Assembly: GCF_003050865.1 (NCBI RefSeq)
Contig: NZ_QAOK01000008.1
Coordinates: forward strand, 1 to 64,000
Length of the DNA stretch: 64,000 bases
Source: Nitrosospira multiformis
GTDB taxonomy: Bacteria > Pseudomonadota > Gammaproteobacteria > Burkholderiales > Nitrosomonadaceae
Reading direction: 5' to 3'
Shown: positions 980 to 54,908 of the stretch, piece after piece
Numbering within the stretch: the stretch's first letter is position 1
How the letters are laid out: every line of letters begins with the position of its first letter
Program-made: the position numbers and the translations under genes
Notes under the pieces: generated by a model
The model's database searches: none
Told to the model about the DNA's origin: nothing
Seen by the model: the letters and a program-made list of their open reading frames with translations, nothing else

Positions 980-1025
980 GCATGACTAACAAATTCTCCA
1001 CTAATTTCTATCAACGAAAGGAGGC

Positions 1026-1445: not shown

Positions 1446-1479
1446 TGAGATGAAAAAAAGGTGGGTATTCGATAGAGCA

Positions 1480-1533
1480 GCCGTAGGGCGGTTCTACCCG
1501 CTATCCTGTTGAGACGGGTGTAGAACCCGCCCC
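1480..1533. repeat. Palindromic intergenic repeat, copy 1
   Basis: A long inverted repeat with arms around GGGCGGTTCTACCCG and CGGGTGTAGAACCCGCCC separated by a loop containing ATCCTGTTG. A second copy with the same loop core and near-perfect arms lies at 17793-17851. Both sit just after rightward genes. They resemble REP/MITE-like dispersed palindromes and could fold in RNA. Whether they act as terminators is unknown, as neither has a T-run. Confidence 0.7.
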
Positions 1534-1609
1534 ATGATCTGGCTGGGTGGCCGCACGGCTTGGCCTCATTCCCGCACGTAGCCTCGCTTCAGGATGCCTC
1601 CGGAGAAAA

Positions 1610-2293: not shown

Positions 2294-2471
2294 TATCGAT
2301 ATGAATTTCGTAAGATTCAGAGCGGTCCGGAAAGAAGCTTCTTAGGTGAATGTACAGTCCCTTTGAACGGCCGCTTCCATGAAGACACTGGAGTTACTGG
2401 AGTTACATTTCAATATAGCATGCACGATGATAAAAACATTTTTAATCCCGGTTTTCCTGGACAGGCAGTGG

Positions 2472-4895: not shown

Positions 4896-4953
4896 ATTGA
4901 ATCCTCCTTTTTTCCAGGCACTGGTTGCTGCCAATCCCGGCACTGACGCAAGG

Positions 4954-6060: not shown

Positions 6061-6142
6061 GGCAAGGACTTGATCGGAACACATAAGGATTCAGCGCTCC
6101 GCCAGCATCTGAGAATTACAACATCATATTAAGACAATCATA

Positions 6143-7024: not shown

Positions 7025-7527
7025 CTATGTTCCTCGCAATAGCACCTGTCGCACCTGTCGAACACGGTCACTTGAAATCTGGCTGAAGATTGAAGATATC
7101 CGGTCGAAAGATGCTGCGATAGCTGGAACAGGATAAACCGAATGATTTTTCCGGCCCCCTGCGATCCTTCAGCCCTTCGGTCTTGTAAAGCCAGCACCCT
7201 TTACACCGATTCCTCACACTCCTAGCGGCTCAGCGCTGCAGAAAATCTCGATCCTGTAGTCTCCAGGCAGCCGAACTTACGATTAGAAACACGATCTTCG
7301 GTTGCGTCTGTACGTCAACCCTCATATGACAGATGTTTTGCCATCCCTTGCTGCCGGACTGCCGGGGCAATTCCTCCCCCTCCCTGAACTTATCCGTTTT
7401 TCCTCCATCAATCGTTCATCCCTGAAAGGATTCCTCGAAGACGTGAGCGATTCTGATTTTAGGCGACATTTCCTTGAATTGATGGTGCTATACTCTTTAC
7501 TTTAACCGTATCCCCCGGGAGACCTTC
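7025..7527. other. Divergent intergenic region between usp and the tim44-like gene
   Basis: About 500 bases without a supported gene, holding the promoters for two divergent units. A 67-codon frame at 7302-7505 lacks a ribosome binding site and any recognisable features. A short direct repeat of CACCTGTCG occurs at 7048-7066. Nothing else stands out. Confidence 0.4.
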
Positions 7528-8412
7528 ATGAAGAAAATATTGACTCTGTTGACCCTGGCCGTTTTCAGCTTCGGATTGGCGGCCTTCGATGCCGAGGCGA
7601 AACGCTTCGGTGGCGGTCAAAGTATGGGCAAGCAACGGGAATCCATGAGCCAGCAGGCAGCACCCCAGCCCGGACAAACACCCAGCGCCGCGCCCGGAGC
7701 AGCCGCACGCCCAGGCGGCAATAAGTGGCTGGGACCACTGGCCGGTTTAGCGGCGGGAGGATTGCTGGCTGCGCTTTTCATGGGCGGCGCATTCGAAGGA
7801 ATCAACATGATGGACGTGCTGATGCTGGCAGCGTTGATCGGCGGGGTCTTTTTTGTCATGCGCATGCTGCGCAAACCAAAGCAGGAACACTCGGCTCGCC
7901 CGATGCAGTATTCGGGCATGCAGGGAACCTCAACCGATCACGGCGTCACACCCGGAGCAACAGCCGCAACAGGCTCCGGACCGGAGACAACCCCGAGAGC
8001 AAGCGCGGTGGCGCCGGTTTCCGGCACAGCCAATATTCCCGCTGATTTTCAGGTGGAACCTTTCCTGCGTAACGCGAAGACTTCTTTCATACGCTTGCAG
8101 GCAGCAAATGATGCGCGCGACCTGAACGATATCCGGGAATATACTACCCCCGAGATGTATGCGGAGATCAGCATGCAGATCAACGAGCGCGGTAACGAGC
8201 CCCAGCGGACCGACGTGCTGGCAATCAATGCGCAGCTGCTTGAAGTGATCACGGAAAAAGACATGGCAATTGCCAGTGTCCGCTTCAACGGTCAGTTGCG
8301 CGAGTCGCCCCAGTCAGCGCCGGAAGGGTTCGATGAAATCTGGCACGTGCAAAAGGATCTCAAAGATCCTGATGCTGTCTGGCTGCTCGCTGGAATTCAA
8401 CAAGTCTCCTAG
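7528..8412 (+). CDS. Tim44-like domain protein
   Basis: A 294-residue protein with a signal peptide or anchor at 1-24 (ending AEAKRFGGG), a Gln/Pro/Ala-rich linker with a glycine-rich hydrophobic hairpin at about 70-115, and a C-terminal Tim44-like domain (about 175-294) starting at PADFQVEPFLRNAKTSFIRLQAAND. In bacteria this domain occurs in inner-membrane-associated proteins of poorly known role. GGGAGA lies before ATG 7528. It is followed by ubiJ and ubiB with short spacing, an arrangement common in Betaproteobacteria, which suggests a link to ubiquinone synthesis or the membrane it takes place in. Confidence 0.8.
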   Translation: MKKILTLLTLAVFSFGLAAFDAEAKRFGGGQSMGKQRESMSQQAAPQPGQTPSAAPGAAARPGGNKWLGPLAGLAAGGLLAALFMGGAFEGINMMDVLMLAALIGGVFFVMRMLRKPKQEHSARPMQYSGMQGTSTDHGVTPGATAATGSGPETTPRASAVAPVSGTANIPADFQVEPFLRNAKTSFIRLQAANDARDLNDIREYTTPEMYAEISMQINERGNEPQRTDVLAINAQLLEVITEKDMAIASVRFNGQLRESPQSAPEGFDEIWHVQKDLKDPDAVWLLAGIQQVS

Positions 8413-8424
8413 AGACCGGATTCC

Positions 8425-9006
8425 ATGCTGGCATCGGTGGCGATAGCCCCGCTCAACCATATGCTGCGTGGAGAAAGCTGGGCGCGCAAACGACTACAGC
8501 CGTGCGCCGGGAAGACTGCCCGTTTTCGCGTCCCACCTTTTTTTGATCTTGCCGTCGTCATCCAGCCTACCGGCGAGGTGGCGGCGGCATCCACCGCTGC
8601 TGGCAACGACGCCATCCTGACTATCATGCCAGCGTTGCTGCCGCGCCTGCTTGTCCGCGATGAAGCCGCATACCGTGAAGTCAGAATTTCCGGGGATAAC
8701 ATATTCGGCCAGGAAATCCTCGAGATCGGGCAGAATCTGCGCTGGGACGTGGAGCAGGATTTAAGCGATGTGATGGGGGACATCCTCGCTCACCGGGTGG
8801 TCCGCGCGGGGGAAAACCTGATCCACTGGCATAACGAAACCCTTCATAATTTATCTCAGGCGTTGATGGAGTACCTCACCGAAGAACAGCCGGTACTTGC
8901 CAAGCCGACCGACATGCGCACATTTGCCGATGAAGTGGGCGGATTGCAGGATCATGTGTTAGAACTGGAACTGCGTGTGGAAAGCCTCATAAACAAGTCT
9001 TTATAA
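8425..9006 (+). CDS. ubiJ: Ubiquinone biosynthesis accessory factor UbiJ (SCP2-like)
   Basis: A 193-residue protein with an N-terminal SCP2-type lipid-binding fold and a C-terminal helical tail (VGGLQDHVLELELRVESLINKSL) typical of UbiJ. In E. coli UbiJ binds the lipid tails of ubiquinone intermediates and organises the Ubi enzyme complex with UbiK. The placement directly before ubiB supports the call. Sequence similarity within this family is low, so the assignment depends partly on context. The ATG at 8425 comes 12 bases after the tim44-like stop. Confidence 0.78.
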   Translation: MLASVAIAPLNHMLRGESWARKRLQPCAGKTARFRVPPFFDLAVVIQPTGEVAAASTAAGNDAILTIMPALLPRLLVRDEAAYREVRISGDNIFGQEILEIGQNLRWDVEQDLSDVMGDILAHRVVRAGENLIHWHNETLHNLSQALMEYLTEEQPVLAKPTDMRTFADEVGGLQDHVLELELRVESLINKSL

Positions 9007-9074
9007 GTGAACTGAGAAGATCAAGGAACATCTGAGCAAGTCCCTGGGTGAACCGGGGTAGCAGAATAGGATAA

Positions 9075-10589
9075 ATGCGTTTCTTTCGTCTTCTCAAAAT
9101 ACTCGCCGTCTCATTCCGCTTCGGCCTCGACGAATTCTTCCTGAGCCACGAGCGGCTGCGTCTGCTGCGACCTGTCGTCAGAGCGGCAACGTTCTGGCGT
9201 AAACTGGACCGTGCGCGTGGCGAACGTCTCCGCCTCGCCCTGGAGGCTCTGGGCCCCATCTTCGTCAAGTTCGGCCAGATGCTCTCCACCCGGCGGGATC
9301 TTCTGCCGCCCGATATCGCCGACGAACTGGCGAAACTGCAGGACCAGGTGCCACCATTTCCCTCCAGCATTGCCCTCAAGACACTGGAAGAGGTTTATGG
9401 AAAACCCGTCAATGAAGTTTTTCTGCTGTTCGATGCGGAACCGGTAGCAAGCGCGTCCATTGCCCAGGTTCATCTGGCGGTGCTGCATGATGGTACGGAA
9501 GTCGCAGTCAAGGTACTGCGTCCCGGCATCGCGCCTGTAATCGCACATGATATCGCACTGATGGACACAGGTGCCCTTCTGCTCGAAAAAGTCTGGCCGG
9601 ATGCCAAGCGGCTCAAGGTACGGGAAGTCGTGAGCGAATTCGCCCGTCATCTCGACGATGAACTGGATCTGATGCGCGAAGCGTCCAATTGCAGCCAGTT
9701 GCGGCGCAATTTCCTGGATTCTCCCCTGCTTCTCGTACCGGAAGTCTACTGGGATTACTGCTATTCGAGCGTCATGGTGATGCAGCGCGTCAAAGGCACG
9801 CCCATCAGTCATGTCACAGCCTTGCGTGAGCAGGGAGTGGATATTCCGCGGCTTGCCCGCGTCGGGGTGGAAATCTTTTTCACCCAGGTGTTCCGCGACG
9901 GCTATTTCCATGCCGATATGCATCCAGGAAACATCTTTGTCGGCAGTGACGGCCGATATATCGCAGTCGACTTCGGCATAATGGGAACCCTTACCGACGA
10001 GGACAAGAACTATCTCGCGCAAAATTTCCTGGCTTTCTTCCGCCGTGACTACAAGCGTGTGGCGGAAGCGCACGTGGAAGCGGGATGGGCGCCGAAAAAC
10101 ACGCGCGTCAATGATTTCGAAACCGCTATCCGGGCAGTGTGCGAACCCATTTTCGACAAGCCCTTGAGTGAGATTTCATTTGGGCGGGTATTGCTGCGGC
10201 TGTTTCAAACATCGCGCCAGTTCAATGTCGAAATCCAGCCGCAACTGGTGATGCTGCAAAAAACGCTGCTCAATATCGAGGGACTGGGACGGGACCTCGA
10301 CCCCAATCTCGACCTGTGGACGACGGCCAAGCCATACCTGGAAAACTGGATGGCGGAGCAGTTGGGCTGGAGGGGATTCAGTCACCGCCTGCGCAAGGAA
10401 GCCACGAGCTGGGCGGTAATCATGCCCCAGTTTCCCCGCCTGATGCATCATGCCCTGACGGAGATACGCACCAGTGCCCTGGAAGAAAAGATGGACCGGT
10501 TTATCCTGGAGAAAAAACGTGAGAGCCGGCGACTCACCATCTTCATCGTATTGCTGATCATAGTGATACTGTGGCATCTGGGGAAATAA
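9075..10589 (+). CDS. ubiB: Ubiquinone biosynthesis protein UbiB (ABC1/ADCK kinase-like)
   Basis: A 504-residue atypical protein-kinase-like ATPase needed for aerobic ubiquinone synthesis, thought to help extract hydrophobic intermediates from the membrane. Signature motifs are present: [14 protein letters not shown] (the KxGQ motif), the alanine-rich loop ASASIAQVH, the catalytic HADMHPGN and the metal-binding VDFGIMG. One or two C-terminal transmembrane helices end the protein ([14 protein letters not shown]). AGGATAA lies before ATG 9075. It is the last gene of the tim44-like/ubiJ/ubiB group. Ubiquinone is the electron acceptor that links ammonia oxidation to respiration, so the function is central here. 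Confidence 0.93.
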
Positions 10590-10686
10590 GGGCGGAGATT
10601 TTTTCGCACGCAAAGATCTTTCCTATCCTCGTTTTCCGCTAAGTCAAAGGCCACGCAAGCCGCCCATTACTTGAGGCGGCGCTTCA

Positions 10687-10716
10687 CCTGTCATGGCCTG
10701 TCATGACCTGTCATCG
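10687..10716 (+). repeat. Three tandem 10-bp repeats of CCTGTCAT
   Basis: CCTGTCATGG, CCTGTCATGA and CCTGTCATCG lie head to tail, exactly one helical turn apart, about 100 bases after ubiB. CTGTCAT is the half-site of the PhoB box, but true Pho boxes repeat every 11 bases and this repeats every 10. A GC-rich hairpin (CCGCAAG / CTTGCGG, 10725-10743) follows. The rest of 10590-11058 shows no gene. Function is unknown; it could be an operator for the amoC unit, although amoC starts about 600 bases away. Confidence 0.45.
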
Positions 10717-11058
10717 CCCGTGATCCGCAAGCGCTGCTTGCGGCGGCGCCTTTGAGTTCCCCTTTGAATTCCCTTTGTCCGGCACGTCCAGTGCTCCCCA
10801 CGCACTCCCTGCAACACCCCAGCGCCCTGCAAAGGGAACTCACGTCCTGAGTTGATTCGCTGGATTGAGCCCCTGGGTTGATCCGTCTAGCCCGTCGTCC
10901 GAGACCTTTCCCGTCCATCCTTCATGAGAAATCCTTGAAGGGGAATTTGGTTGACCAGGGAGCATCTTCACAGTAAGATAACAAAAACTTCACAAAAAGA
11001 TCACAACTTCTTAACAAATCGCAGTATCGGTAAAGGCGAGGCTTTGATAAGGAGAAGG

Positions 11059-11139
11059 ATGATGAAAGTAGGAAAACTCCTTGCCCTTTCATATTTTACG
11101 GGCATGACGGTAGCACTGTTGGCGGTAACGCTCTTCTGA
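11059..11139 (+). CDS. Possible 26-residue membrane peptide upstream of amoC
   Basis: A short frame encoding a peptide that begins MMKVGKLLALSYF and continues with a strongly hydrophobic stretch, consistent with one transmembrane helix. AAGGAGAAGG lies immediately upstream of the ATG at 11059 (with a second ATG at 11062), which is a good ribosome binding site. It is 172 bases before amoC on the same strand, with no terminator evident between them. It is not recognised. It could be a true small membrane protein expressed with amoC or a translated leader. Confidence 0.4.
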   Translation: MMKVGKLLALSYFTGMTVALLAVTLF

Positions 11140-11311
11140 TCGATTGAGGCTGCCAAGGGGACCTTCCCTCAACCCCCTGGATGTTGCGGCAGCACTCTTT
11201 TGATCCGTGGAGACGCCAGGGGAAGTACTCCTCCTGCACTTCCCCTGAATCTTTGTTCTTGATTTCCAGATTCCCTCGAGGATTCTGGATTATTTGCAAA
11301 AGGAGCTGGTG

Positions 11312-12133
11312 ATGGCTACTGCAGTTGAAAATAGAGTAGTAGTAGATAAGGCGGCGAAGGCAAGCACTCCTGCCTACGATATGTCGGAATGGTATGACTC
11401 CAGGTTCTACAAGCTGGGTCTGCTGCCGATACTGGGGATGGCAGTTTTCTGGGTCTGGTTCCAACGCACCTACGCCTATTCCCACGGGATGGACTCCATG
11501 GAACCGGAGTTCGAGCAAGTCTGGATGGGGCTGTGGCGTTTCCAGATGATACTCTGGCCCACCATGGCCGCCTTATACTGGGGGTGGCTGTGGAAGACCC
11601 GCAGCACCAAGGAGGAATTGGCCAGCCTGACGATCAAGCAGGAAATCAAGCGGTACTTCTATTTCCTGATGTGGCTGGGGGTATACCTGTTCGGCGTCTA
11701 CTGGGGATCGAGCTTCTTCACCGAGCAGGACGCTTCATGGCACCAGGTGATCATTCGTGACACGAGCTTCACTCCCAGCCATATTCCTTTGTTCTATGGC
11801 TCGTTCCCGATGTACATCATCATGGGCGTGTCGATGTACATCTATGCCAGTACGCGACTGCCACTCTACAACAAGACGACCTCGTTTCCGCTGGTGATGG
11901 TCATTGCCGGTCCGATCATGAGTCTCCCGAACGTCGGCCTGAACGAATGGGGCCATGCCTTCTGGTTCATGGAGGAACTCTTCAGCGCACCGCTGCACTG
12001 GGGTTTCGTGGTACTGGCCTGGGCCGGGCTGTTCCAAGGGGGCCTCGCCGTCCAGATCATTGCACGGTTCTCCAACCTCATGGACGTGCAATGGAACAAG
12101 CAAAGCCGGGTGATCCTGGATAACGTTGGTTAA
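11312..12133 (+). CDS. amoC: Ammonia monooxygenase subunit C (stand-alone copy)
   Basis: AmoC is an integral subunit of the copper membrane monooxygenase that oxidises ammonia to hydroxylamine. The 273-residue protein has the typical start ([13 protein letters not shown]), about six transmembrane helices and conserved segments such as [20 protein letters not shown], the acidic/His patch [25 protein letters not shown] and [13 protein letters not shown], which carry the metal-binding Asp/His residues. ATG 11312 is chosen over an in-frame TTG at 11294 because AAAGGAG precedes it. No amoA or amoB is adjacent. Beta-AOB commonly carry extra lone amoC genes, which in Nitrosomonas have been linked to stress recovery. 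A terminator follows directly. Confidence 0.93.
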
Positions 12134-12164
12134 GTTTTAATCCAGTTGTAACTGCTGCAGCACA

Positions 12165-12196
12165 CCCCATCCGCTTTCACAGGGATGGGGTTTTTT
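12165..12196 (+). terminator. Rho-independent terminator after amoC
   Basis: Perfect 8-bp stem CCCCATCC / GGATGGGG with a 10-base loop, followed by six T. It lies 31 bases after the amoC stop and ends that transcript. The convergent gdx gene ends 60 bases further on. Confidence 0.9.
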
Positions 12197-12256
12197 GTAA
12201 GCGGGTTAACGGGCTGCCGTCGGACGGGTTACATGAAACGGCGTTGCCTGGGAACC

Positions 12257-12574
12257 TCAATGTGCCAGCTGCAGTATGACAACACCGGAGACGATGAGCG
12301 CAACCCCGAGGTATCGAGCAATGGACGCCGGATCATCGTAGAAGAAGACGCCGACAAGAAACGTGCCGGCAGCTCCGATACCGGTCCAGACCGCATAAGC
12401 GGTACCAATAGGGATTTGACGCTGGGCGAGCCACAGCAGGATGCCACTAGTGGCCATAAAGACGACAGCTACAGCGACACCGGTTACACGGGACGACGGC
12501 TCTTGTGCCATCTTCAGCCCGACAGGCCATCCGATTTCAAACAACCCTGCCAGGACAAGATAGGTCCAACTCAT
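12257..12574 (-). CDS. gdx: SMR-family guanidinium exporter (Gdx/SugE type)
   Basis: A 105-residue four-helix small multidrug resistance protein that works as an antiparallel dimer exchanging substrate for protons. The essential membrane glutamate is in AGLFEIGW (Glu13). The GLK after it and PIGTAYAVWTGIGAAG in helix 3 match SugE/Gdx rather than EmrE-type drug pumps; E. coli SugE is now known as a guanidinium exporter and has the same length. ATG 12574 has CAAGGAGAG upstream. Together with the riboswitch-linked guanidine operon at 45-54 kb, this makes guanidinium export the most likely role. A quaternary-ammonium exporter is the alternative. Confidence 0.85.
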   Translation of the reverse strand: MSWTYLVLAGLFEIGWPVGLKMAQEPSSRVTGVAVAVVFMATSGILLWLAQRQIPIGTAYAVWTGIGAAGTFLVGVFFYDDPASIARYLGVALIVSGVVILQLAH

Positions 12575-12604
12575 GATGACTCTCCTTGGAAATCGAATGT
12601 GAAA

Positions 12605-12637
12605 GCTGCGGCGAGGTCAGCAGCCTCGCACTGCAGC
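12605..12637 (-). promoter_or_regulatory. Stable stem-loop in the gdx leader
   Basis: On the gdx strand, GCTGC-agt-GCGAGG-loop-CCTCGC-c-GCAGC forms an 11-bp interrupted stem 30 bases before the start codon. It has no T-run, so it is not a plain terminator. It shows none of the conserved guanidine-I elements (CTAGGG, GGTCCGAGAG) and no ACGR loops of guanidine-II. It could affect translation or mRNA stability. Confidence 0.4.
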
Positions 12638-12789
12638 ACCGGAAATTTCCTGTTTTTTAGCATGGCCCTGACTGCCTGCAGGCCCTCGCTTTATCATAGC
12701 GTTCGAAGTCCCTTAAGAGAATGGCGGGAGCAGCAGTTGCTTCATAAATTTTGGTAAAATGTCGAGTTTTACCTTGATTTGCCCTGACT

Positions 12790-13881
12790 ATGGCGCTCCT
12801 GGAAATCCGTAATGTTACGCGGCGTTTCGGCAGTTACACTGCGGTCGACAACGTCAGCATCGATGTAGAAGCCGGCGAGTTCTTCACGCTGCTGGGTCCT
12901 TCCGGTTGCGGCAAGACAACGCTGCTGCGGATGATAGCCGGGTTCGATCTGCCGGACTCCGGTCAAATCCTGCTGGATGGCAAGGATATGGTAGGCATCC
13001 CGCCGGAAAAACGCCCTGTCCATACCGTGTTCCAGACCTATGCCTTATTTCCGCACATGACGGTGGCGGACAATATCGCCTTTCCCCTCAAGATGGCAGG
13101 GAAAGCGCCACAGGAAATAAAAAAAAGAGTGAATGAACTGCTGGAGCGGGTTCATCTGCCGAACTTCGGCAATCGCTTTCCACACGAACTCTCTGGCGGC
13201 CAGAAACAGCGCGTGGCTTTCGCCAGAGGATTGGTGAATCGACCGCGGCTGCTCCTGCTCGATGAACCATTGGGGGCACTCGACGCAAAGTTGCGCGAAG
13301 AGATGCAGATCGAGCTCATCAATCTCCAGAAAGAAATCGGTATTACCTTTATTTTTGTCACTCATGCACAAGATGAAGCGCTGGCGCTATCGCATCGCAT
13401 CGCGGTGATGAACCGGGGGAATGTCGAGCAGATAGACGAACCCTCTAAAATCTACAGTGCTCCGAGAAATTATTTCGTTGCAGATTTTATCGGCAAAATC
13501 AGTGTGATGAATGCAGCGGTTATGGAAGCTGTTCCGTCGCATCTGAAACTCGCGATAGAAGGACTGGGGGAGGTAACGGCGCCGGCCAGGGAAGGTGTGG
13601 AGGTGGGCGACAAGGGTGTGCTGGCCATCCGCCCGGAGCAGGTGCGAATTTCTCACCCATCCCATGAATCGCAGCTAAAAAACCATTTCCGCGGCAAAGT
13701 GCACGACTTCCTGTATGTCGGCGACGTAACCACTTATATTGTGGAACTCGTCAACGGTGCCTATATTGAAGCTTTACTGCCGAATTCCGCTCCTGGCCGG
13801 GCCAAGTTTTTCGAGGTGGATGACGAGGTAACGATCTCCTGGCGCCACGATGCGGGCATTTTTCTCAATGATTCCCAATGA
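12790..13881 (+). CDS. potA: Spermidine/putrescine ABC transporter ATPase PotA
   Basis: A 363-residue ATPase of the polyamine importer. Walker A is GPSGCGKTT (residues about 38-46), the signature LSGGQKQR, and Walker B LLLLDEPLGALD; a C-terminal TOBE-like regulatory domain (about 270-363) follows. ATP hydrolysis drives uptake by PotBC with substrate delivered by PotD. The ATG at 12790 is 215 bases from the divergent gdx start and has no strong ribosome binding site. Its stop overlaps the potB start (ATGA). The four genes form one operon. Substrate within the polyamine family (putrescine, spermidine or related cations) cannot be fixed. Confidence 0.92.
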   Translation: MALLEIRNVTRRFGSYTAVDNVSIDVEAGEFFTLLGPSGCGKTTLLRMIAGFDLPDSGQILLDGKDMVGIPPEKRPVHTVFQTYALFPHMTVADNIAFPLKMAGKAPQEIKKRVNELLERVHLPNFGNRFPHELSGGQKQRVAFARGLVNRPRLLLLDEPLGALDAKLREEMQIELINLQKEIGITFIFVTHAQDEALALSHRIAVMNRGNVEQIDEPSKIYSAPRNYFVADFIGKISVMNAAVMEAVPSHLKLAIEGLGEVTAPAREGVEVGDKGVLAIRPEQVRISHPSHESQLKNHFRGKVHDFLYVGDVTTYIVELVNGAYIEALLPNSAPGRAKFFEVDDEVTISWRHDAGIFLNDSQ

Positions 13882-45011: not shown

Positions 45012-46898
45012 TTATCCAGGACCCGTCCCGCGCACGTCCTCTTTGCGTTCACTGGGATCAGCCGTTGATTGCATATAGCGGCGCCATCCCCCGAACTGGC
45101 TGATATCCTTTGCATCCGCTACCGCGTAGCCCTCGCATAGGAAACTCTGCACGGATTCGCCGCCCGCAAGGGTAATGGTGCCGATCCCCAAGGGAGCAGG
45201 TATGCCTGCCACAAAACTGCCAAATTCGCTTGCTGGCAGCTCCCACACCTCCACTTCGATTGCAAACCCTCGCTCGTTCTTATCTACTCGCACCAATCCC
45301 GGACGAAGCGGCGGTGTTCCCGGAAGCGCATAGAGTTTGTAGTCGGGGGAAGTTGTGGTATTTGCCACCAGGCGTCCGTTGCGGCTGGTCAATTGAGGAT
45401 TCAACGGCAGACCGGACAGATGCGCGCCGCACACCGCTACACGCACGAGGACTGGTTGCTCCGGCTGTGCTGGCCTCTGAAAAGAAGCCATTTCTGGCGA
45501 AACTTCTTCTTGCAGTGGAATACCGGTAGCCCCCAGGGGCAGCGAATAGGCCTGTTGCAGACGTGCGGCAAGATGCAACAACGAGACATCCTGATGGGCT
45601 GGAGTCACCAGGGTTACGCCAAACGGCAATCCGTCATTCTGAAATCCGGCAGGCACCGCCACTGCCGAATAGTCGAGCAGGTTCATGTAGTTGGTGTAGT
45701 AGCCCAGATTCGTGTTCAGGCGAATTGGATCTGCCAGCATTTCCTCGATGCGATAAATGGTCCCGGCGGTGGGCGTCAGCAGATAGCCCACTTCAGACCA
45801 GGTACGGTCAGCCTGGCGCTTAAGCGTATGCAAGCGATACAAGCCGTTGTAGGCATCTGCCGCCGAGAATCGGTGTGCGCCGGCAATGATCTCCCGTACC
45901 GGGGAAACCACCTCATCGCTATGCAAATCAAAAAATTGCTGAATGGCGGCATAACGCTCAGCTACCCATGGCCCCCCATAAAGCAGGTGCGCTACTTCCA
46001 GAAAGGGCGAAAAATCGATCTCGATGACCTCACCGCTCAATGCTTGCAGTTGCGTTATCGCTTCCTCGAATAACCTCGCACTCTCCGAATTGCCGAAGAA
46101 TTGCAGTTGCTGCCGGTGCGGTATGCCAAAACGGAAACGCTGTCGAAGGTTTTGCGAGGCAAGATCATCCCTGTTCCCTCTCCGGCGGGAATAAATGTCT
46201 TCATCATCATAGCTGGCAGCTGCTTCGAGGACTCGCTCCGCATCGGCAGCGGTAAAGGCAAAGATGGACACGCAATCCAGCGAGCGGCAGGCGGGTACGA
46301 CACCGCGTGTGGAAAGCCAGCCCCTGGTGGGTTTATACCCGATGAGATTATTGAAGGCGGCGGGCACCCTGCCGGAGCCCGCAGTATCGGTTCCCAGGCT
46401 GAAACATACCCAGCCCTTCGCTAGAGCCACTGCTGAACCCGAGCTTGATCCACCGGAGATGTATTCGGGATTGAAGGCGTTGCGGCAGACACCATAGGGA
46501 GAGCGGGTACCGTTCAACCCGGTGGCGAACTGATCGAGATTGGCCTTGCCGATGGGAATCGCACCCGCGTCGATCAGTCTCTGTACCACGGTTGCGCTGC
46601 GTTGCGGTGTATAAGCAAACGCCGGGCAAGCCGCTGTAGTTGGAACACCGGCAAGGTCGATATTATCCTTGATAGCGAAGGGAATGCCGTATAAAGGCAG
46701 TGCAGCCATCCCTTTTTCTTCCACCTTCCGGGCATATTGCCGCAGTGATTCCAGCGGCAGCTTGTGTATCCAAACATTGTCGGAATCGTCCTGGATCAGC
46801 GCATGCACCGCCTCCATCACCCCGGTAGGATTCAGCTCGCCAGTGGCATAGCGTCGCAGCAGGGAGGGGATATCGCCCAGGGGGCCAAGCTTGGTCAT
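45012..46898 (-). CDS. atzF: Allophanate hydrolase
   Basis: Converts allophanate to two ammonia and two CO2. The N-terminal amidase-signature domain (about 1-450) carries the Ser-cisSer-Lys triad: Lys77 in FAIKDNID, Ser151 in GGSSSGSA, Ser175 in DTAGSGR. The AtzF C-terminal domain (about 505-628) follows, making 628 residues, the normal length. ATG 46898 is set by CAGGAGGAG upstream. It is two bases after the carboxylase stop and last in the leftward operon. It would be the final step of guanidine (via carboxyguanidine and allophanate) or urea breakdown. Confidence 0.92.
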   Translation of the reverse strand: MTKLGPLGDIPSLLRRYATGELNPTGVMEAVHALIQDDSDNVWIHKLPLESLRQYARKVEEKGMAALPLYGIPFAIKDNIDLAGVPTTAACPAFAYTPQRSATVVQRLIDAGAIPIGKANLDQFATGLNGTRSPYGVCRNAFNPEYISGGSSSGSAVALAKGWVCFSLGTDTAGSGRVPAAFNNLIGYKPTRGWLSTRGVVPACRSLDCVSIFAFTAADAERVLEAAASYDDEDIYSRRRGNRDDLASQNLRQRFRFGIPHRQQLQFFGNSESARLFEEAITQLQALSGEVIEIDFSPFLEVAHLLYGGPWVAERYAAIQQFFDLHSDEVVSPVREIIAGAHRFSAADAYNGLYRLHTLKRQADRTWSEVGYLLTPTAGTIYRIEEMLADPIRLNTNLGYYTNYMNLLDYSAVAVPAGFQNDGLPFGVTLVTPAHQDVSLLHLAARLQQAYSLPLGATGIPLQEEVSPEMASFQRPAQPEQPVLVRVAVCGAHLSGLPLNPQLTSRNGRLVANTTTSPDYKLYALPGTPPLRPGLVRVDKNERGFAIEVEVWELPASEFGSFVAGIPAPLGIGTITLAGGESVQSFLCEGYAVADAKDISQFGGWRRYMQSTADPSERKEDVRGTGPG

Positions 46899-46900
46899 AT

Positions 46901-49900
46901 TCACTCCTCCTGAACGACAAGCAACATCTGCCCAGCGGATATATGGCTCCCCTCCTTGCAGAATAGCTGTCGCACCGTACCGCTGACCGGCGCCTCCACG
47001 GAGAATTCCATTTTCATGGATTCCACCACTACCACTGGACTTCCCATTTCGACACGCTGCCCTTCCTTGACGAGCAGTTTCCATACCGTGCCGGTTACAT
47101 GCGCACTGACAACCTGGGAACCAGAGGGCAAATCCAGTTCGCCCTGCGCATCCGCTTCCTCGAGTGTAACCTCGCTCACGTACTCAGCCTTGCCTTCGGC
47201 CTTCCAGCGTTCACGCTCGGCTTCAAACGCAGCCTGCTGCTTTGCTTTGAAAGCGCCGATGGATGCGGCATTTTCTTTCAGGAAAGCGTTGTACTGTTTC
47301 AAACTGAATGTTGTCTCCTCGATCTTCAGCTTGAAGTGTCCGGTAATGAAATCCTTGCGCAGCTCAAGCAGTTCGCTTTCGCTAACCGGATAGAAACGGA
47401 TCTGGTCAAAGAAACGCAGCAGCCAGGGTTTTCCTTCCTTGAAATCGGCTGTCTGGCGGTAACGGTTCCACATCTGCACCGTGCGGCCCACAAACTGATA
47501 GCCTCCGGGACCTTCCATCCCGTATATGCACAAATAGGCCCCGCCTATGCCAACCGCATTCTCGGGCGTCCAGGTGCGCGCAGGGTTGTACTTCGTGGTC
47601 ACCAGGCGATGACGCGGGTCCACAGGTGTAGCAACCGGCGCGCCCAGATAGACATCACCCAGCCCCATGACAAGATAGTTCGCGGAAAATACGATGTGCT
47701 GCACTTCCTCGATACTGTCGAGACCATTGATCCGGCGGATGAACTCGATGTTGCTCGGGCACCAGGGCGCATCACTGCGCACTGACTGCATATACTTTTC
47801 TATCGCCAGCCGGGTGGCAGCATCGTCCCACGACAGTGGAAGATGGACGATGCGTGCCGGGACCTCCATATCATCGATATCGGGCAATTTCTTTTCCGCA
47901 CCGACCAGCATCTCCAGCAGCTTATCGCGCGGTAGTACGCGGGAATCGAAATGCACTTGCAGCGAACGGATGCCGGGTGTCAGATCCAGAATGCCTTCCA
48001 GTTCCCCGTCATTGCACGCTGTCTGCACCCTATCCATCAGCGCGTGCGCGCGGAAGCGCAAATTGAGATCGAGCTCGAGCGGACCATACTCGACCAGCAG
48101 ATTCTTGTCGCCTGCCTGGCGATATACGACCTGCACCTGGCCGTCGCTTTGCGGGATGAAGTGGAGCACAGGGGTGGGTTCGGTGGTTGCGCCCTGCTCC
48201 GCCTCCGATGAAGCGTATTGTGGAACCTGGAGGTCTTTTATCCTTGCATCCTGTTGCAACTCCAGCGCCAGCGCCTGCTCCATCGACATTCTGTGGAAGC
48301 GCACGCGATCGCCCGGCTTGAGCTGCCCCATCTTCCACAATTCGGCCTGGATAATGGTAACCGGGCAGACGAAGCCGCCAAGGCTGGGGCCATCGGGACC
48401 GAGTATCACGGGCATGTCTCCGGTAAAATCCACGGTACCTACAGCATAGGCGTTGTCGTGAATATTGGAGGGATGCAGCCCTGCTTCACCGCCATCGCTG
48501 CGCGCCCAATGGGGCTTGGGGCCGATCAATCGCACTCCCGTGCGATTGGAATTGTAATGCACTTCCCAGTCAGTGGCGAAGAGGGTTTCGATATCCTCCT
48601 CAGTGAAAAAATCCGGTGCACCGTGCGGCCCGTACAGCACCCCTATTTCCCAGCTGTCGGTGTAGGGCGGTACCAATTCCTCCGGCAGCCCCTGCTCAAA
48701 TCCACCATCACTGTCTTTTCTGGCTTCAAAGATATGCAGCACGTCGCCGGTGAGGAGGGTGCGGCCTGCATGCCCGCCGAAGTGGCCGAGGGTGAAGGTA
48801 GATTTACTGTCCAGGTAATCGGGGACCCGGATTCCTCCCTGCACTGCCAGATAAGCGCGGCACCCATGATTTACGAGTTTGCCGAACTGCAACAACGAAC
48901 CGGCCTTGACGCGATGCGCCCGCCAATAGGCAAGCGGTTCACCATCCAGGCGCACCTCCATCGGCGCGCCACATACAGCAATAACGCTGTCACAGTTGAA
49001 ACGCAACGCCGGGCCGGAAAGCGTAATCTCCAGCCCTGCCTTATCCTCGCTGTTATTGACGAGCCGATTGGCCAGACGGAACGCCAGACCATCCATCGGT
49101 CCCGATGGCGGCACGCCGATGCTCCAGTATCCTGTCCGCCCGGGATAATCCTGCACCGTGGTCTGCACTCCCGGACTGAGGACATCGATCGTATGGGCGG
49201 TATAACGAAAACTGTTCAGAAAGCTCGTCGTGTGTCGCCCGCTGCGAAAAGCCTCGCTGCGCAGGATCTGCCTCAGGTAGCCAACGTTGGTTTCCACCCC
49301 GTGCAATGCCATTACGTCCAGGGCTTCCAGCAGCCGCGCAATGGCCTGCTCCCGGTCCGGCGCGTGCACGATGACTTTTGCCAGCATGGGATCATAAAAT
49401 GGCGTGACATCGACCCCGCGTTCCACCCAGGTTTCCACGCGCGCAGCAGACGGAGACGGAAACTCCGCCGCCGTGAGGATACCGCAGGAAGGTTGAAAAT
49501 CCTTGACCGCATTCTCTGCGTACACACGTACCTGGATAGAGGCCCCATGCGGCTGGATATCGAATGAATCCAGAGGTGGCAAGTCTCCAGCGGCTTGCCG
49601 AACCATCCATTCCACAAGGTCAATGCCGGTCACTTCCTCGGTTATCCCATGCTCGACCTGCAGCCGCGTATTCACCTCCAGGAAATAAAATTCCGCGGTG
49701 GAGGCATCGAAAATGTACTCCACTGTACCCGCAGACTGGTAGTTGACTGACTGGCCCAAGCGGACCGCCGCCTCCAGCAACGCCTGGCGCACGCGCGGCG
49801 GCAGATTAGCCGCTGGCGTTTCTTCGATCACCTTCTGGTTGCGCCGCTGCATCGAGCAGTCCCGCTCACCCAGTGCGATCACCCCGCCCTTGCCGTCGCC

Positions 49901-50539
49901 GAATATCTGCACCTCGATATGGCGTGCCTTCTCGACATATTTTTCGAGAAACAGGCCGGCGTCCTTGAAATTGTTCTGCGCCAGGTATTTCACCGATTCG
50001 TAGTTTCCACTCAACTCTTCCTTGTTCCAGCACAAACGCATGCCGATGCCACCACCCCCTGCCGTGCTTTTCAGCATGACCGGGTAGCCGATATGGGCGG
50101 CCTGGCGCAAGGCATCATCCAGGTCTTCGAGCAATCCTGTGCCCGGCAGTAGCGGTACCTGGTTCTGCTGCGCCAGTTCGCGCGCCGTGTGCTTCAAGCC
50201 GAATGCACGCATCTGGTGGGGGGTGGGGCCAATGAAGGAAATGCCATGGTCAGCGCATTGCTCCGCAAATTCAGCTTTTTCACTGAGGAAGCCATATCCT
50301 GGATGAATGGCATTTGCTCCCGCGTGGGTCGCGACCTCCAGGATCTTTTCGGCGCGCAGATAACTTTCCGCGGCGACTCCGCTGCCTATGCAGTAGGCTT
50401 CATCAGCTTCGATCACATGCCGCGATAGCGCATCTGCCTCGGTATAGACTGCAACGCTCTTCACCCCCATGCGCCGCAAGGTACGGATAATCCGGCAGGC
50501 AATGGCCCCGCGGTTGGCTATCAATACTTTTTCAAACAT
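46901..50539 (-). CDS. Biotin-dependent urea/guanidine carboxylase
   Basis: A 1212-residue multidomain enzyme that uses ATP and bicarbonate to carboxylate urea to allophanate or guanidine to carboxyguanidine. In order: biotin carboxylase domain (about 1-450, with [14 protein letters not shown]-grasp loop), allophanate-hydrolase-subunit-2-like domain (about 465-770, [19 protein letters not shown]), subunit-1-like domain (about 830-1040) and a biotinyl domain with Lys1176 in ESMKME as the biotin site. The last two enzyme-transferase domains choose the substrate. The upstream guanidine-I riboswitch and two DUF1989 genes suggest guanidine; urea remains possible. The ATG at 50539 is 45 bases after the first DUF1989 stop. 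Confidence 0.93.
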
Positions 50540-50584
50540 GATTTATTCTCGGTTGAGTGAAAAACAGCCGGGATAGAAACTGGA

Positions 50585-51280
50585 TTATGTAAAGCTCATC
50601 TCACTGGGATCGTCCCAGACCAGCAATCGAATGGGCGTAGGATTGTAGGCGTTGCATGGGTTGTTAAGTTGCGGGCAGTTCGAAATCAGCACCACCACGT
50701 CCATTTCGGCCTTCATTTCCACGTATTTGCCAGGCGCGGAGACGCCATCCACGAATTCCAGGCCACCCTCTTCCGTCACCGGCACGTTCATGAAGAAATT
50801 GATATTGCTGGGAATATCGCGCTTGCTGATGCCGAGCTGCTGGCACTCCGGCTCATGCGCCAGCGCGTGCAGAAAGTTATCGCGGCAACTGTGCATGGGG
50901 AATTTTTCCAGCGCATACCGCACGGTATTGCTCTCCGCCGCGCATGCCCCTCCCAGGGTGTCATGCCGCCCGCATGTATCCGCAACGATGGTGAGCATTA
51001 CGTTGCCATAATTCGAGTACAGCTTGCTGCCGGTAGTCAGATAGACCTTCTTCTGCCGGCGTACGGTATCGGTTGCGCTATAGCGCTCCACCGCGTGTGA
51101 GGCGTTGTAAAACAGGGTATCGACGGCCTGATTGCCTTCCAGGTCCACGATCCGGAAAATCTGTCCTTCCCTGACGATCTTGACCCACGGCTCGCCTGCC
51201 GGGCAGATTTCATCCACTACCGCCGCATCCGGATCCAGCCTGCTTTCAACAAAATTCTTGCTCTTTGAATTCGCGTTCAT
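50585..51280 (-). CDS. DUF1989 protein, probable carboxyguanidine deiminase subunit
   Basis: A 231-residue protein of the 'urea carboxylase-associated' DUF1989 family. Family segments are [45 protein letters not shown] (with cysteine/His likely at the metal or active site), and [11 protein letters not shown]. In related clusters two such proteins form the carboxyguanidine deiminase (CgdAB) that releases ammonia to give allophanate. ATG 51280 has TGGAGGTG upstream and overlaps the preceding gene's stop by four bases, so the two subunits are translated together. Which of CgdA/CgdB this is was not determined. Confidence 0.85.
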
Positions 51281-52008
51281 GCCGCACCTCCATGACAAGC
51301 ATATAAACATTCAGTGTTTTGCCGGGCACGCTGGTTTTCGGAAATGTGCGCGCATTCGGCAATCACCGAAGATGGAGTTGCAAAAGCAGTGAGATTGACT
51401 GCACCGGGCTGGTACGTGGTAGAGGGGTCGAGAGGATGCGGCGCAGCGGATAACACGACCAGCGTATCCATTTCGAAGCTCAAATCCACATGATCCCCAG
51501 CTTTGCTGTTACCGGGCTGGAAGGTAAGTTCGCCGGCTGAATTGGCGGTTACCTTGCTGAAGAAATTGATATTGGATACTACGTCCCGCATGCCCAAGCC
51601 CCATTTGCCAAGCTCGATCAGCATGCCGTCCAGTCCATTGCGGAACATCTGGTTGCGGTGCTCCTGATACCGCGCGATACCGTATTTCCGGCGTATCAGT
51701 TCGGCGTCGCTCAGGCCGCAGACAGTATCGTGCCAACCTACGCTATCGCCGGTAATGCAACAGAATATCCTTCCCATGTCCGAATGGCAGGCATGTCCCC
51801 TGGTCAGGCGGAAGGTGTGCTGGGATTTAAGCGTATCGGCCATGTTGTAGCGCTCCAGTTTTTCTTCCTGATTGAAGAACAATACCGAGGCATTGGCGCC
51901 GCCGTTGATATCCGTCATGCGCAGCGTGGTGCCGCGCCGCAGAATGCCGGACCAGTGGCAACCGCCGGGAATATGTTGTTCCCACAAATGTGCATCCGGT
52001 TGGTTCAT
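51277..52008 (-). CDS. DUF1989 protein, second probable carboxyguanidine deiminase subunit
   Basis: A 243-residue paralogue of the neighbouring DUF1989 protein, with [28 protein letters not shown], the [23 protein letters not shown] segment and [11 protein letters not shown]. It ends with a cysteine-bearing tail ([10 protein letters not shown]). A heteromer with the other subunit is likely. ATG 52008 is set by GAGGAGAAAG. It starts 41 bases after the permease stop in the same operon. Confidence 0.85.
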
Positions 52009-52049
52009 GTCTTTCTCCTCATCACGATAGTTTTTCAGGTGTATCCAGT

Positions 52050-53543
52050 TCAATTTGTAGATCGATGCGGTGTTTTCGCATCCCTCTGCGTGCTGGGCGA
52101 AGTGGATTTTTTACGCAGCTTATTTATCAGGATATATAGCGCCGTAATGCCGAGAATGCTGCCCAGCACCAGCGGTACCGCCCAAAGCTGCCACCACGGC
52201 GCGTCGGGAGCCGTGGCATAGGGGCGCGGCCAGGCAATATTGACAAGTTCGAATACAGACCAGATAAAAGCGACCGTGTTGATCAGCAACCCCCAGACGC
52301 CAAGCTTCAACTCACCCAATGCCGGATTCCAGCGCCCGGTGAGCCGGGTGAATAAACCCACGCCGGTCGTCATGGAAAACATGGCGTAAAGCCCACCCGT
52401 GCCGAAGGCAATCACGGTTGCGACCGCGCCGTCGTTCAACCCGAACAGCAATCCCAGTCCTGCCAGGGATACAGTACAGATAACGGCATTGCGTGGCGTC
52501 TTGTCTGGCGCCAAGCGGCTGAGAACAGCCGGCATATTGCCTTCGCGCGCCATGGAATACACGATGCGCGAGGTATATTTCACCACCGAGGCGCCGCAGG
52601 CCAGGAATGCGACCATGACGATCGCTAAAAACGGCTTTTCCGCCCACTCGCCAAAACTGCCAGTAATTACAGGCGTAATCGGATCGGAAGTGGCGCTCGC
52701 AGTAATCAATGCCTCGCGATCGAACGCGAGTGTCAGGGCGGCGGAATTGAAGAGCACCACCGATCCCACCATGCATAAAGAGAAGAAGACGGCACGCGGC
52801 ACCATCCGCTTGGGTTCGTGCGTTTCCTCTGCGATAGTGGAGCAGGCATCAAAACCGATGAATGCCCAGCCGGCGATCGCCAGCGCTGCCAAAAACGCGG
52901 AAGCCTGGTCTGGCGCCGTGCCTGTGCCGAGATGCTGGAACAGTTCGGAAAAGGAATGCTGCCGGAAAAACAGGAACAGCAGCAGCGCCACGCCAAGGGA
53001 GCCGACAACTTCCGCATAAACTCCCATTGTGATGACCAGCTTGAAGATATTGACGTGGACCACGTTGATAATGGTGCACAGGAGAAGGAATACAGCGCCC
53101 CAGATCACGAATGCAGAGCCCGTTTCGCTCTCGGCTCCAAAAAACAGAGCAAGCCAGACGCCACCCGTATAGGCGGTGGTGGTGAGCATGGCAATAGTGG
53201 AACTGACGTAGATGACGCCGGCAAATTGCCCGGTGACCACGCCCCCGAGTTGACGCGACCATTTGTATGCACCGCCCGCAATCGGGAATTGTGAAGACAG
53301 TTCGGCGTAGACCGTGGCTACGAGCAACTGCATGACGAGACAGGTGACCAGCGCGCCGAACCATCCGCCTCCTGTCACAGTGGTCTGGACGCTGATGATG
53401 GCGTAAAGCCCTACCACGGGGGAAACAACGGCGAATCCGAGCGTAAAGCTGTTCCATACGCTCATGCTGCGGTGAAGCTTGTCGCCAGTGACCGGAGTGG
53501 CGGCAGGACGGGAAAATGTATTCGGGGTTTCTTCTATGGACAT
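52050..53543 (-). CDS. APC-superfamily permease, candidate guanidine (or urea) importer
   Basis: A 497-residue inner-membrane protein with about 12 helices of the amino acid-polyamine-organocation family. The N-terminal motif SVWNSFTLGFAVVSPVVGLYAI and GWAFIGFDACSTIAEETHEPKRMVPRAVF in helix 6 region are family typical. It is the first gene after the guanidine-I riboswitch, and genes after such riboswitches include transporters, so import of guanidinium is the best guess. ATG 53543 follows AAAGGG. General annotation would give 'amino acid permease', which is probably wrong in detail. The leader before it is about 400 bases long. Confidence 0.8.
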   Translation of the reverse strand: MSIEETPNTFSRPAATPVTGDKLHRSMSVWNSFTLGFAVVSPVVGLYAIISVQTTVTGGGWFGALVTCLVMQLLVATVYAELSSQFPIAGGAYKWSRQLGGVVTGQFAGVIYVSSTIAMLTTTAYTGGVWLALFFGAESETGSAFVIWGAVFLLLCTIINVVHVNIFKLVITMGVYAEVVGSLGVALLLFLFFRQHSFSELFQHLGTGTAPDQASAFLAALAIAGWAFIGFDACSTIAEETHEPKRMVPRAVFFSLCMVGSVVLFNSAALTLAFDREALITASATSDPITPVITGSFGEWAEKPFLAIVMVAFLACGASVVKYTSRIVYSMAREGNMPAVLSRLAPDKTPRNAVICTVSLAGLGLLFGLNDGAVATVIAFGTGGLYAMFSMTTGVGLFTRLTGRWNPALGELKLGVWGLLINTVAFIWSVFELVNIAWPRPYATAPDAPWWQLWAVPLVLGSILGITALYILINKLRKKSTSPSTQRDAKTPHRSTN

Positions 53544-53685
53544 GATATCCCTTTCGAGACACACGGAATGATTCCACCTGGCTGACCATTTGTCGGTCTC
53601 TTCATGCTGCCGGAAGCAATGAGCAAGGAGACACCCGGACGTAGTGGACTGTTGCAGCTTTTTGTATCGCGGCTATTTAGGCGGC

Positions 53686-53793
53686 GAAAAAATACTACGA
53701 ACTTCGTCATTCCAGGCCACGACCCGGAATCCAGTCTGAACCCACAATGGTGTGCTTCGCACGCCATTGGATACTGGCTTCCGTGGGCATGAC
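53686..53793. repeat. Dispersed intergenic repeat, copy 2 (inside the operon leader)
   Basis: Shares the flank AAAATACTACGAA and the ends CGTCATTCC ... GGCATGAC with copy 1 at 19185-19306, with an internal CAATGGTGTGCTTCG core. It lies between the riboswitch and the permease start, so it is transcribed as part of the leader mRNA. A separate perfect hairpin CCCAGTT / AACTGGG (53820-53840) is just upstream of it in the RNA. Confidence 0.7.
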
Positions 53794-53914
53794 TTATATA
53801 CTTTATATACTGCTTGCCACCCAGTTCTATCGTAACTGGGCTGACAACTGAAAAAGCGGGGAAAAATACAGGAGGGAGATGCACGACCAGGTCTCCTTTT
53901 TCGGCGGTTAAACT

Positions 53915-53949
53915 CCGGGAATCAATGTAATAACTACATGATCTCCCGG
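53915..53949 (-). terminator. Hairpin overlapping the aptamer 3' end (candidate expression platform)
   Basis: On the minus strand CCGGGAGATCATGTA pairs with TACATTGATTCCCGG, a stem of about 14 pairs with single-base bulges around a short loop. Its 5' arm is the last conserved part of the riboswitch (GCCCGGGAGA), so aptamer and hairpin cannot both form. It is followed by AGTTTAAC, a weak U tract; a stronger T-run lies about 40 bases further on. The likely logic is: no guanidine, hairpin forms and stops transcription; guanidine bound, genes on. The hairpin is clear, its role is inferred. Confidence 0.6.
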
Positions 53950-54036
53950 GCTTTTATCCCTCCGTGGAGCCTCGCCATGACGAAGCCGGAAACTCTCGGA
54001 CCAGACACTTCGAGAAAAGAAGCCGGAACCCTAGTT
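53940..54036 (-). promoter_or_regulatory. Guanidine-I (ykkC) riboswitch
   Basis: Read on the minus strand from 54036 the sequence contains the conserved blocks of the ykkC aptamer in the right order: CTAGGGTTCCGG, then CTGGTCCGAGAG, CACGGAGGGATAAAAG and CCCGGGAGA, within 97 bases. These blocks are diagnostic of the guanidine-I class, which binds guanidinium and usually switches on its genes. It points into the permease/DUF1989/carboxylase/allophanate hydrolase operon, about 400 bases before the permease start. It lies 190 bases after the O-methyltransferase stop. Confidence 0.93.
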
Positions 54037-54096
54037 TCGCGCTACAACTTTACTGGAAAACAGTTTTGCACATCCCATTCAGGAATACAACAAAAA

Positions 54097-54102
54097 ATTA
54101 TA
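54097..54102 (-). promoter_or_regulatory. Candidate -10 element for the guanidine operon
   Basis: A perfect TATAAT on the minus strand about 60 bases before the riboswitch, in an AT-rich stretch. A good -35 at 17 bases was not seen (GACTCA at best). Transcription from here would start shortly before the aptamer, as expected. Confidence 0.35.
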
Positions 54103-54227
54103 AAAATTTTCTTTCGATTTGAGTCGCCGGATCTGAGCCTTCGATATTTTATTTCGATATTTTTCAGCACCCCTGCTCTCTCCAGAGATTCAGGGCCTTG
54201 GCATTGGAGATGGATTACAAATAGCTG

Positions 54228-54908
54228 TCATGGTGCCTTTCTCCGCGCCACGACAACGCCATCCCGCGTTGGATTTATGAAGGCGTCAAATTCTGGATCG
54301 TTGAAGATCAGCCGGTTGTGCTCGAGAATGGCCTCTGTCCATCCCGGAACAATATCAACATAACGTTCCACCGCCACCCGCCCGTGCCAAAGCACATTGT
54401 CCGCAACATACAGACCGCCTGGGCGAATCCTTTCTTTTGCCATACGCCAGATTTCCGGATAATCTCCCTTGTCTGCATCGTTGTAGCAGATATCGAATAA
54501 TCCTTCGGTCTGCCCGAATATCTCCTGTGCGATGCCGGTGCGAAAATCGATCCTCTCCAGCAGATCGGCAGACTTGAGATACTGCTCGGCCTTTTCCTTG
54601 TTCTGAGGATCGCCATCGGTACAGATCACCTTTCCGTCCACCCCGGCTGCTTTTGCGAACCAGTAAGCCGAATAGCCGTAGCCGCTGCCGAACTCGAAAA
54701 TACGTTTGGCATCGATCGTTTTCGCCAGTGTTTCCAGAAAAATGCCGACCAGGCGGCCAACGATCGGGAAATTGTTTTTGGCAGCCACGGCTTCCATTTC
54801 GGTCAGCACGGGATGATCAGTTCGTCCCACCAAGCTGCGCATATACTTTTCGATTGCCGGATTGACCGGGTCTAATTGGGAGGGATTTACAATAGTTGGA
54901 GATTGCAT
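54228..54908 (-). CDS. SAM-dependent O-methyltransferase (family 3)
   Basis: A 226-residue cytosolic methyltransferase of the caffeoyl-CoA/catechol type. SAM motif I is FEFGSGYGYSA, the acidic residue follows in ICTDGD, and the metal/catalytic region is DICYNDADKGDYPE with LYVADNVLWHGRV after it. The substrate is probably a small phenol or similar molecule but is not known. ATG 54908 is preferred to GTG 54914 because GAGGAG is eight bases away. It is upstream of the riboswitch and probably a separate transcript. Confidence 0.87.
   Translation of the reverse strand: MQSPTIVNPSQLDPVNPAIEKYMRSLVGRTDHPVLTEMEAVAAKNNFPIVGRLVGIFLETLAKTIDAKRIFEFGSGYGYSAYWFAKAAGVDGKVICTDGDPQNKEKAEQYLKSADLLERIDFRTGIAQEIFGQTEGLFDICYNDADKGDYPEIWRMAKERIRPGGLYVADNVLWHGRVAVERYVDIVPGWTEAILEHNRLIFNDPEFDAFINPTRDGVVVARRKAP

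Follow-up and report, generated by a model that had tools for sequence, protein, structure and literature searches.

The operon and its riboswitch

The window, by which we mean the whole stretch of 64,000 nucleotides analysed, carries on its minus strand a guanidine-I riboswitch aptamer, a leader and, on the same strand behind these, genes for an APC permease, two DUF1989 proteins, a carboxylase and an allophanate hydrolase, in that order:

53941..54045 (-), guanidine-I riboswitch aptamer (RF00442; 89.8 bits, gathering cut-off 63, full model)
52050..53543 (-), APC-superfamily permease, predicted guanidine importer (PF13520, 125.8 bits)
51277..52053 (-), DUF1989 protein UAAP1 (TIGR03425, 338 bits, cut-off 206)
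50585..51310 (-), DUF1989 protein UAAP2 (TIGR03424, 347.5 bits, cut-off 284.7)
46901..50539 (-), predicted guanidine carboxylase, 1212 aa (TIGR02712, 1959 bits, cut-off 1304; D704, D962)
45012..46898 (-), allophanate hydrolase (TIGR02713, 817.5 bits, with AH_C domain)

A sequence-only reading of this DNA had placed a guanidine-I riboswitch at 53940-54036 and named a covariance-model search as the check. In that search (cmscan) RF00442 aligned at 54045-53941 on the minus strand over model positions 1-107, with an E value of 8e-15 and neither end cut off. The riboswitch is thereby borne out, with a 5' end 9 nt longer than first drawn, and the four aptamer sequence blocks named in that reading all lie within the alignment in the order claimed. 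By this match the aptamer at 53941-54045 is a guanidine-I riboswitch, with predicted binding of its ligand, and a genome-wide search of the host's draft assembly (3.29 Mb) found no other RF00442 match. Of the 125 family genomes in the present sample, 101 have RF00442 and 108 the carboxylase; within Nitrosospira the riboswitch is found in 22 of 23 genomes, G108 being the one without a match.

Pfam and NCBIfam matches agree with the carboxylase, DUF1989 and allophanate hydrolase genes described earlier at 45,012-53,543. The permease scored 168.9 bits against TIGR03428, far under the cut-off of 740. UAAP1 has an alternative ATG start at 52008. Both DUF1989 proteins exceed their cut-offs and stand as a pair beside the carboxylase, the arrangement by which carboxyguanidine deiminase CgdAB is recognized; from gene order UAAP1 would be the CgdA subunit and UAAP2 the CgdB subunit. 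The carboxylase has biotin carboxylase, carboxyltransferase and biotin carrier domains, and the allophanate hydrolase, also over its cut-off, combines an amidase with the AH_C domain. Its start is likely the ATG at 46898, 3 nt past the carboxylase stop, in a frame that is open from 47084.

A second type of riboswitch-led cluster was seen in G102 (C13, about 977-13851; L152), where a permease and two DUF1989 proteins are accompanied by a carboxyltransferase-biotin-carrier protein without a biotin carboxylase domain, a full carboxylase, a radical SAM protein with a BATS domain, a methyltransferase and an isochorismatase-family hydrolase. It is possibly a pathway for a guanidine derivative. In 13 genomes (G014-G017, G032, G033, G049, G100, G102, G103, G106, G109 and G112) there are carboxylases whose match begins only at about residue 435-457 and then runs to the end.

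Guanidine as the probable substrate

An operon of this kind would usually be labelled urea degradation, as was anticipated, and the NCBIfam models for the carboxylase and the DUF1989 proteins do carry urea names. D704 of the carboxylase aligns with N1330 of the Kluyveromyces lactis urea amidolyase and D962 with D1584 (alignment to 5i8i and 3va7, position 1584 being reached by adding 593, the offset between the two chains, to the 3va7 numbering). The methods of PMC11410670 give a two-residue rule: a guanidine carboxylase is marked by Asp at the sites equivalent to K. lactis 1330 and 1584. Both residues are Asp in 119/119 carboxylase loci readable at both positions, a set of mixed sources in which some genomes are counted twice. 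D704 and D962 thus fit the guanidine signature, in line with the earlier proposal of a guanidine and not a urea carboxylase.

The host genome gave no match to urease alpha (PF00449). Compared with its relative G099 (L147, L154), the host lacks, at its C4:156017-156023, about 16.4 kb (C16:15085-31531 of G099) that includes a urea transporter and ure genes, and about 43 final codons of the transporter are left in frame at the deletion site. An assembly gap is disfavoured as the reason for the missing urease, as the flanks join in one contig without N and the transporter remnant is still there. Urease has been lost by clean deletion while the guanidine operon was kept. A carboxylase without a PF00449 match was found in 41 of 125 family genomes (30 of 88 at a completeness of at least 95%), which indicates that the carboxylase pathway is independent of urease. 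The strain is a natural test case, as guanidine use there cannot pass through urea and urease.

Physiology of the host

The host is a betaproteobacterial ammonia oxidiser closely related to Nitrosospira multiformis; among named carboxylases, the nearest come from N. multiformis Nl7 (96%) and Nl18 (95%). The amoC gene previously noticed in the window was recovered by PF04896 at 11354-12091 (+), and amoA lies elsewhere in the genome (C5:147558-148268, PF02461). These were the only amoC and the only amoA match in the draft genome, on different contigs; the window amoC is probably a singleton, and the amoCAB copies would have been merged or truncated during assembly.

The legend of Fig. 1c in Palatinszky et al. 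2024 (PMC11410670) gives N. multiformis as having genes for guanidine degradation controlled by type I guanidine riboswitches, and the paper counts guanidine genes in 135 of 145 betaproteobacterial ammonia-oxidising bacterial (AOB) genomes. The riboswitch-operon link and AOB guanidine use are therefore already published for close relatives, and on these points the present locus is a confirmation and not a discovery. The same study tested five AOB strains that have this set of genes. Guanidine as the only substrate was used by none of them; when ammonium was present, and only then, three turned part of it into nitrite. N. multiformis and N. communis were among the organisms in which the gene set was tested, and the carboxylase route consumes ATP (PMC11410670). 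The sequence-only reading had suggested guanidine as an indirect energy source. These published results lend that suggestion partial support: guanidine appears from them to be a supplement in AOB and not a stand-alone energy source.

We propose that the operon provides guanidine-induced import and breakdown to three ammonia and CO2, supplementing ammonia oxidation. The APC permease would take up guanidine, the carboxylase would convert it with ATP and bicarbonate to carboxyguanidine, the two DUF1989 proteins would deiminate this to allophanate and the hydrolase would complete the breakdown. The aptamer, gene families and signature residues are seen at this locus, the reactions are those of published relatives, and the flux in this cell is presumed.

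Two other functions were weighed against this proposal. One is that the operon encodes a urea carboxylase and serves urea degradation, as the only urea route in a urease-less strain. The family names of TIGR02712, TIGR03424 and TIGR03425 would suit it, as would the genome without a urease alpha match. Against it stand the Asp where the K. lactis urea amidolyase has Asn1330, the guanidine-I aptamer that heads the operon and the deiminase pair, which in the established pathway is needed for carboxyguanidine only; nor, in a genome without urease, is a urea route needed. We consider urea degradation highly improbable as the function of the operon, granting that the carboxylase may have some side activity on urea, and the assignment of operon and ligand to guanidine can be held with great confidence. 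Another possibility is that the operon acts mainly in detoxification or nitrogen supply, the nitrogen being assimilated and nitrite being incidental, so that energy is not its purpose. That AOB do not use guanidine as sole substrate and oxidise only a fraction of it with ammonium, and that the carboxylase route costs ATP, would fit this explanation, whereas the importer at the head of the operon and the nitrite formed from guanidine by three AOB strains argue against it (PMC11410670). We give it somewhat less than an even chance.

The leader as a proposed expression platform

The ~400 nt between aptamer and permease contain features that may explain how the switch works; the second aptamer hairpin, one strand of which is involved, is presumably the one called P2:

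53966..53979 (-), P2 3' strand, candidate partner of the downstream Shine-Dalgarno (SD)/start (pairing statistics)
53915..53950 (-), anti-aptamer hairpin predicted by folding, which sequesters the last strand of the aptamer, CCCGGGAGA; no T-tract follows
53882..53896 (-), SD (GGAG) to GTG start of the leader ORF, conserved in relatives
53534..53884 (-), leader ORF, GTG start, 116 codons, unannotated; 21 of the 23 copies in the genus have such a frame
53674..53793 (-), copy of a dispersed repeat inside the leader ORF and in frame; 17 further matches in the same genome

The hairpin at 53950-53915, begun by CCCGGGAGA, would by its predicted fold dismantle the aptamer. An intrinsic terminator in the window leader was considered and rejected, as no terminator-like site was found in 53500-54300. 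A hairpin that uses the last aptamer strand formed in 103/103 family leaders folded from that strand to the SD, and a T-rich tail followed in 22/103. These 103 are the riboswitch copies with a recognizable SD and start. Eleven entries were dropped: eight had no SD/start by the pattern used (the second copies in L005 and L006, and L176, L179, L200, L201, L202 and L239) and three were missed by the aptamer pattern (L231, L237 and L238). Some copies had been fetched twice, and the pairing statistics, counted by scripts, are on 83 distinct strand pairs.

In short-leader relatives the conserved SD/start is the start of the permease itself. Family-wide the SD/start region is complementary to the P2 3' strand, in effect copying the P2 5' strand. 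Over eight positions, 87.3% of the pairs are standard, compared with 30.3 to 45.3% when the pairing is slid by -1, +1, +2 or +3. When SD regions were re-dealt from copy to copy, a procedure that ignores the relatedness of the copies, the mean was 83.6%, and 0/2000 re-dealings reached the observed value; for Watson-Crick pairs alone the figures are 74.4% against 67.2%, again with 0/2000. The pair types vary at several positions, one of them having A-U in 46, G-C in 21 and G-U in 7 of the 83 pairs. Mean duplex energy is -12.2 kcal/mol, against -10.3 for re-dealt and -6.5 for spacer-shuffled sequences. Outside the genus (65 rows) no re-dealing of 2000 reached the observed pairing; within Nitrosospira (18 rows) 293/2000 did, so that there the pairing is not above re-dealing. 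Beyond the family, 32 of the 67 named loci L046-L112, including L048 from Nitrosomonas, fit a loose aptamer pattern, and SD/P2 was viewed in these by eye.

When 33 leaders were folded freely, the SD paired with the aptamer at a mean probability of at least 0.4 in 23, the partner not always being P2. The window copy is outside those 23: its free ensemble leaves the SD about half open and P2 persists in its minimum-energy fold, while the isolated SD/P2 duplex has an energy of -15.8 kcal/mol. Folding support for an SD/P2 switch is weakest in the window's own clade.

The complementarity of SD/start and P2 3' strand suggests a translational ON switch. Without guanidine, the last aptamer strand would be held in the hairpin and the P2 3' strand could pair with the SD and start codon; with guanidine bound, aptamer and P2 would hold together and the ribosome site would be free. 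On the pairing pattern we consider it fairly probable that the switch acts mainly on translation.

A leader ORF with proposed coupling to the permease

In Nitrosospira the conserved SD/start is some 145 to 360 nt short of the permease start and opens a small ORF instead. In the window the TAG of this ORF overlaps the permease ATG in ATGTCCATAG. The genus set comprises 23 riboswitch copies from 22 genomes, G103 contributing two copies and G108 none. In 21 of the 23 the frame from the SD start ends between -12 and +30 nt from the permease start, where 5.04 would be expected from dinucleotide shuffles of the leader interior; the end criterion was set after the data were seen, and the permease start of each copy was hand-chosen among candidates. 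G094 and G113 fail, and G096 is counted among the 21 despite an ATA in place of its start codon. The other two frames satisfy the same criterion in 1/46 cases. With the copies grouped by eye into 11 clusters and the largest null value taken in each, 10/11 succeed, for which the chance is about 6e-7.

The coupled ORFs have 47 to 123 codons. Their peptide is poorly conserved, with dN/dS of 0.43 to 1.34 in 10 chosen pairs, and a Pfam search with the leader ORF peptide gave no match; a functional conserved leader peptide was rejected on these grounds. Gap lengths in chosen pairs are multiples of three in 6/8, both exceptions being in G109/G106, and the frame stays open across the dispersed repeat. 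A frame kept open around a poorly conserved peptide is read here as selection for translating the leader and not for the peptide.

We propose that in Nitrosospira the freed site would start the leader ORF and that ribosomes finishing the leader would restart on the overlapping permease start. From the frame statistics such a relay appears moderately probable; the anatomy does not require it, because the permease bears its own SD-like sequence. Of the 103 entries, 24 more, all from outside the genus and a few of them counted twice, open a frame of fewer than 140 codons at the SD start. Among those whose frame was read, L021 aside, it stops about 11 nt short of the permease in L009 and L010, and these two would pass the criterion; the distance is about 27 nt in L008, L016, L020 and L039, and 41, 50 and 93 nt in L042, L028 and L030, respectively. 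As these distances run from about 11 to 93 nt, coupling is claimed for Nitrosospira only.

Mode of control

The main alternative for the leader is that the operon and ligand are the same and control is transcriptional: termination, intrinsic or by Rho, would occur at the anti-aptamer hairpin, and the SD motif and frame would be by-products or remnants of a former permease start. The guanidine-I class is described as usually a transcriptional ON switch in the review PMC12186494, and PMC11410670 likewise assumes transcriptional control. The last-strand hairpin of all 103 family leaders would fit such control, the 22 with a T-rich tail could still terminate, and the fold of the window leader keeps P2. 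Set against this, the window leader is without a terminator-like site, the SD/start is the permease start in short-leader relatives, and, if these were relics, SD, start and open frame would not persist together in 21 of the 23 copies. We therefore regard transcriptional control as rather doubtful, with a probability nearer to a third than to a half.

Translational control can be extended to a common history, to which we give about an even chance: the guanidine-I riboswitch of AOB would be a translational ON switch in which the SD/start mimics the P2 5' strand and competes for the 3' strand, and in Nitrosospira an insertion would have separated this start from the permease, the fast-changing ORF, which in the window has a dispersed repeat inside it, being kept open as a relay. 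Taken as a whole, a guanidine operon with a mainly translational switch and a leader-ORF relay is the best explanation of the locus and a good deal more probable than not. If the reading of the leader is true, the control mode assumed for the guanidine-I class changes across a nitrifier guild, and the long leader is explained, its frame being kept for the ribosome relay while the peptide drifts.

Comparison with known systems

A search of the open-licence literature by title and abstract opening found no guanidine-I riboswitch described with a leader ORF or an SD/P2 platform, and neither feature appears in the passages available from PMC12186494, PMC6031431, PMC7266159 and PMC10907184. Within the literature searched, both are plausible new features of an expression platform.

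The closest operons are those of AOB, including N. multiformis, in PMC11410670, which have in common with the window the riboswitch class, the permease, the two-Asp carboxylase, the carboxyguanidine deiminase, the allophanate hydrolase and a close host. Neither leader ORF nor SD/P2 platform is part of that account as far as its available text goes, and the AOB genomes tested there have urease except N. communis Nm2, whereas the window genome has none. The guanidinase operon of the comammox Nitrospira inopinata likewise belongs to an ammonia oxidiser and begins with a guanidine-I riboswitch and an APC permease; it differs in using a Ni guanidinase and urease in place of the ATP-using carboxylase, and N. 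inopinata grows on guanidine alone (PMC11410670).

For the coupling, the nearest proven case found is the B12 riboswitch leader of Mycobacterium tuberculosis, in which uPPE2 is likewise a short ORF ahead of the first main gene, ppe2, with a stop that overlaps the ppe2 start (PMC11260477). That system is an OFF switch for B12 with an AUGA overlap and no SD at ppe2, and its coupling was shown experimentally (PMC11260477); the Nitrosospira leaders, the window copy included, would form an ON switch with mostly a 10-nt overlap and an SD-like sequence at the permease, and are known from sequence evidence only. The SAM-II riboswitch of Sinorhizobium metA also has an SD within the riboswitch and its real start downstream, that start being an in-frame second AUG and not an overlapping out-of-frame ORF (PMC9373788).

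Other arrangements of guanidine riboswitches were seen among the loci collected. In three of seven loci scanned, none of them annotated as AOB, a guanidine-II riboswitch lies just 5' of the carboxylase and a guanidine-I riboswitch further upstream (L046, L094 and L101, near 7.9 kb). In G014, G015, G016, G017 and G033 two divergent guanidine-I riboswitches stand back to back, a few hundred bases apart (L005, L006, L176, L179, L202 and L239; one G017 copy is below the cut-off). As one arm is without an SD/start by the pattern used, the two divergent arms may differ in their expression platform.
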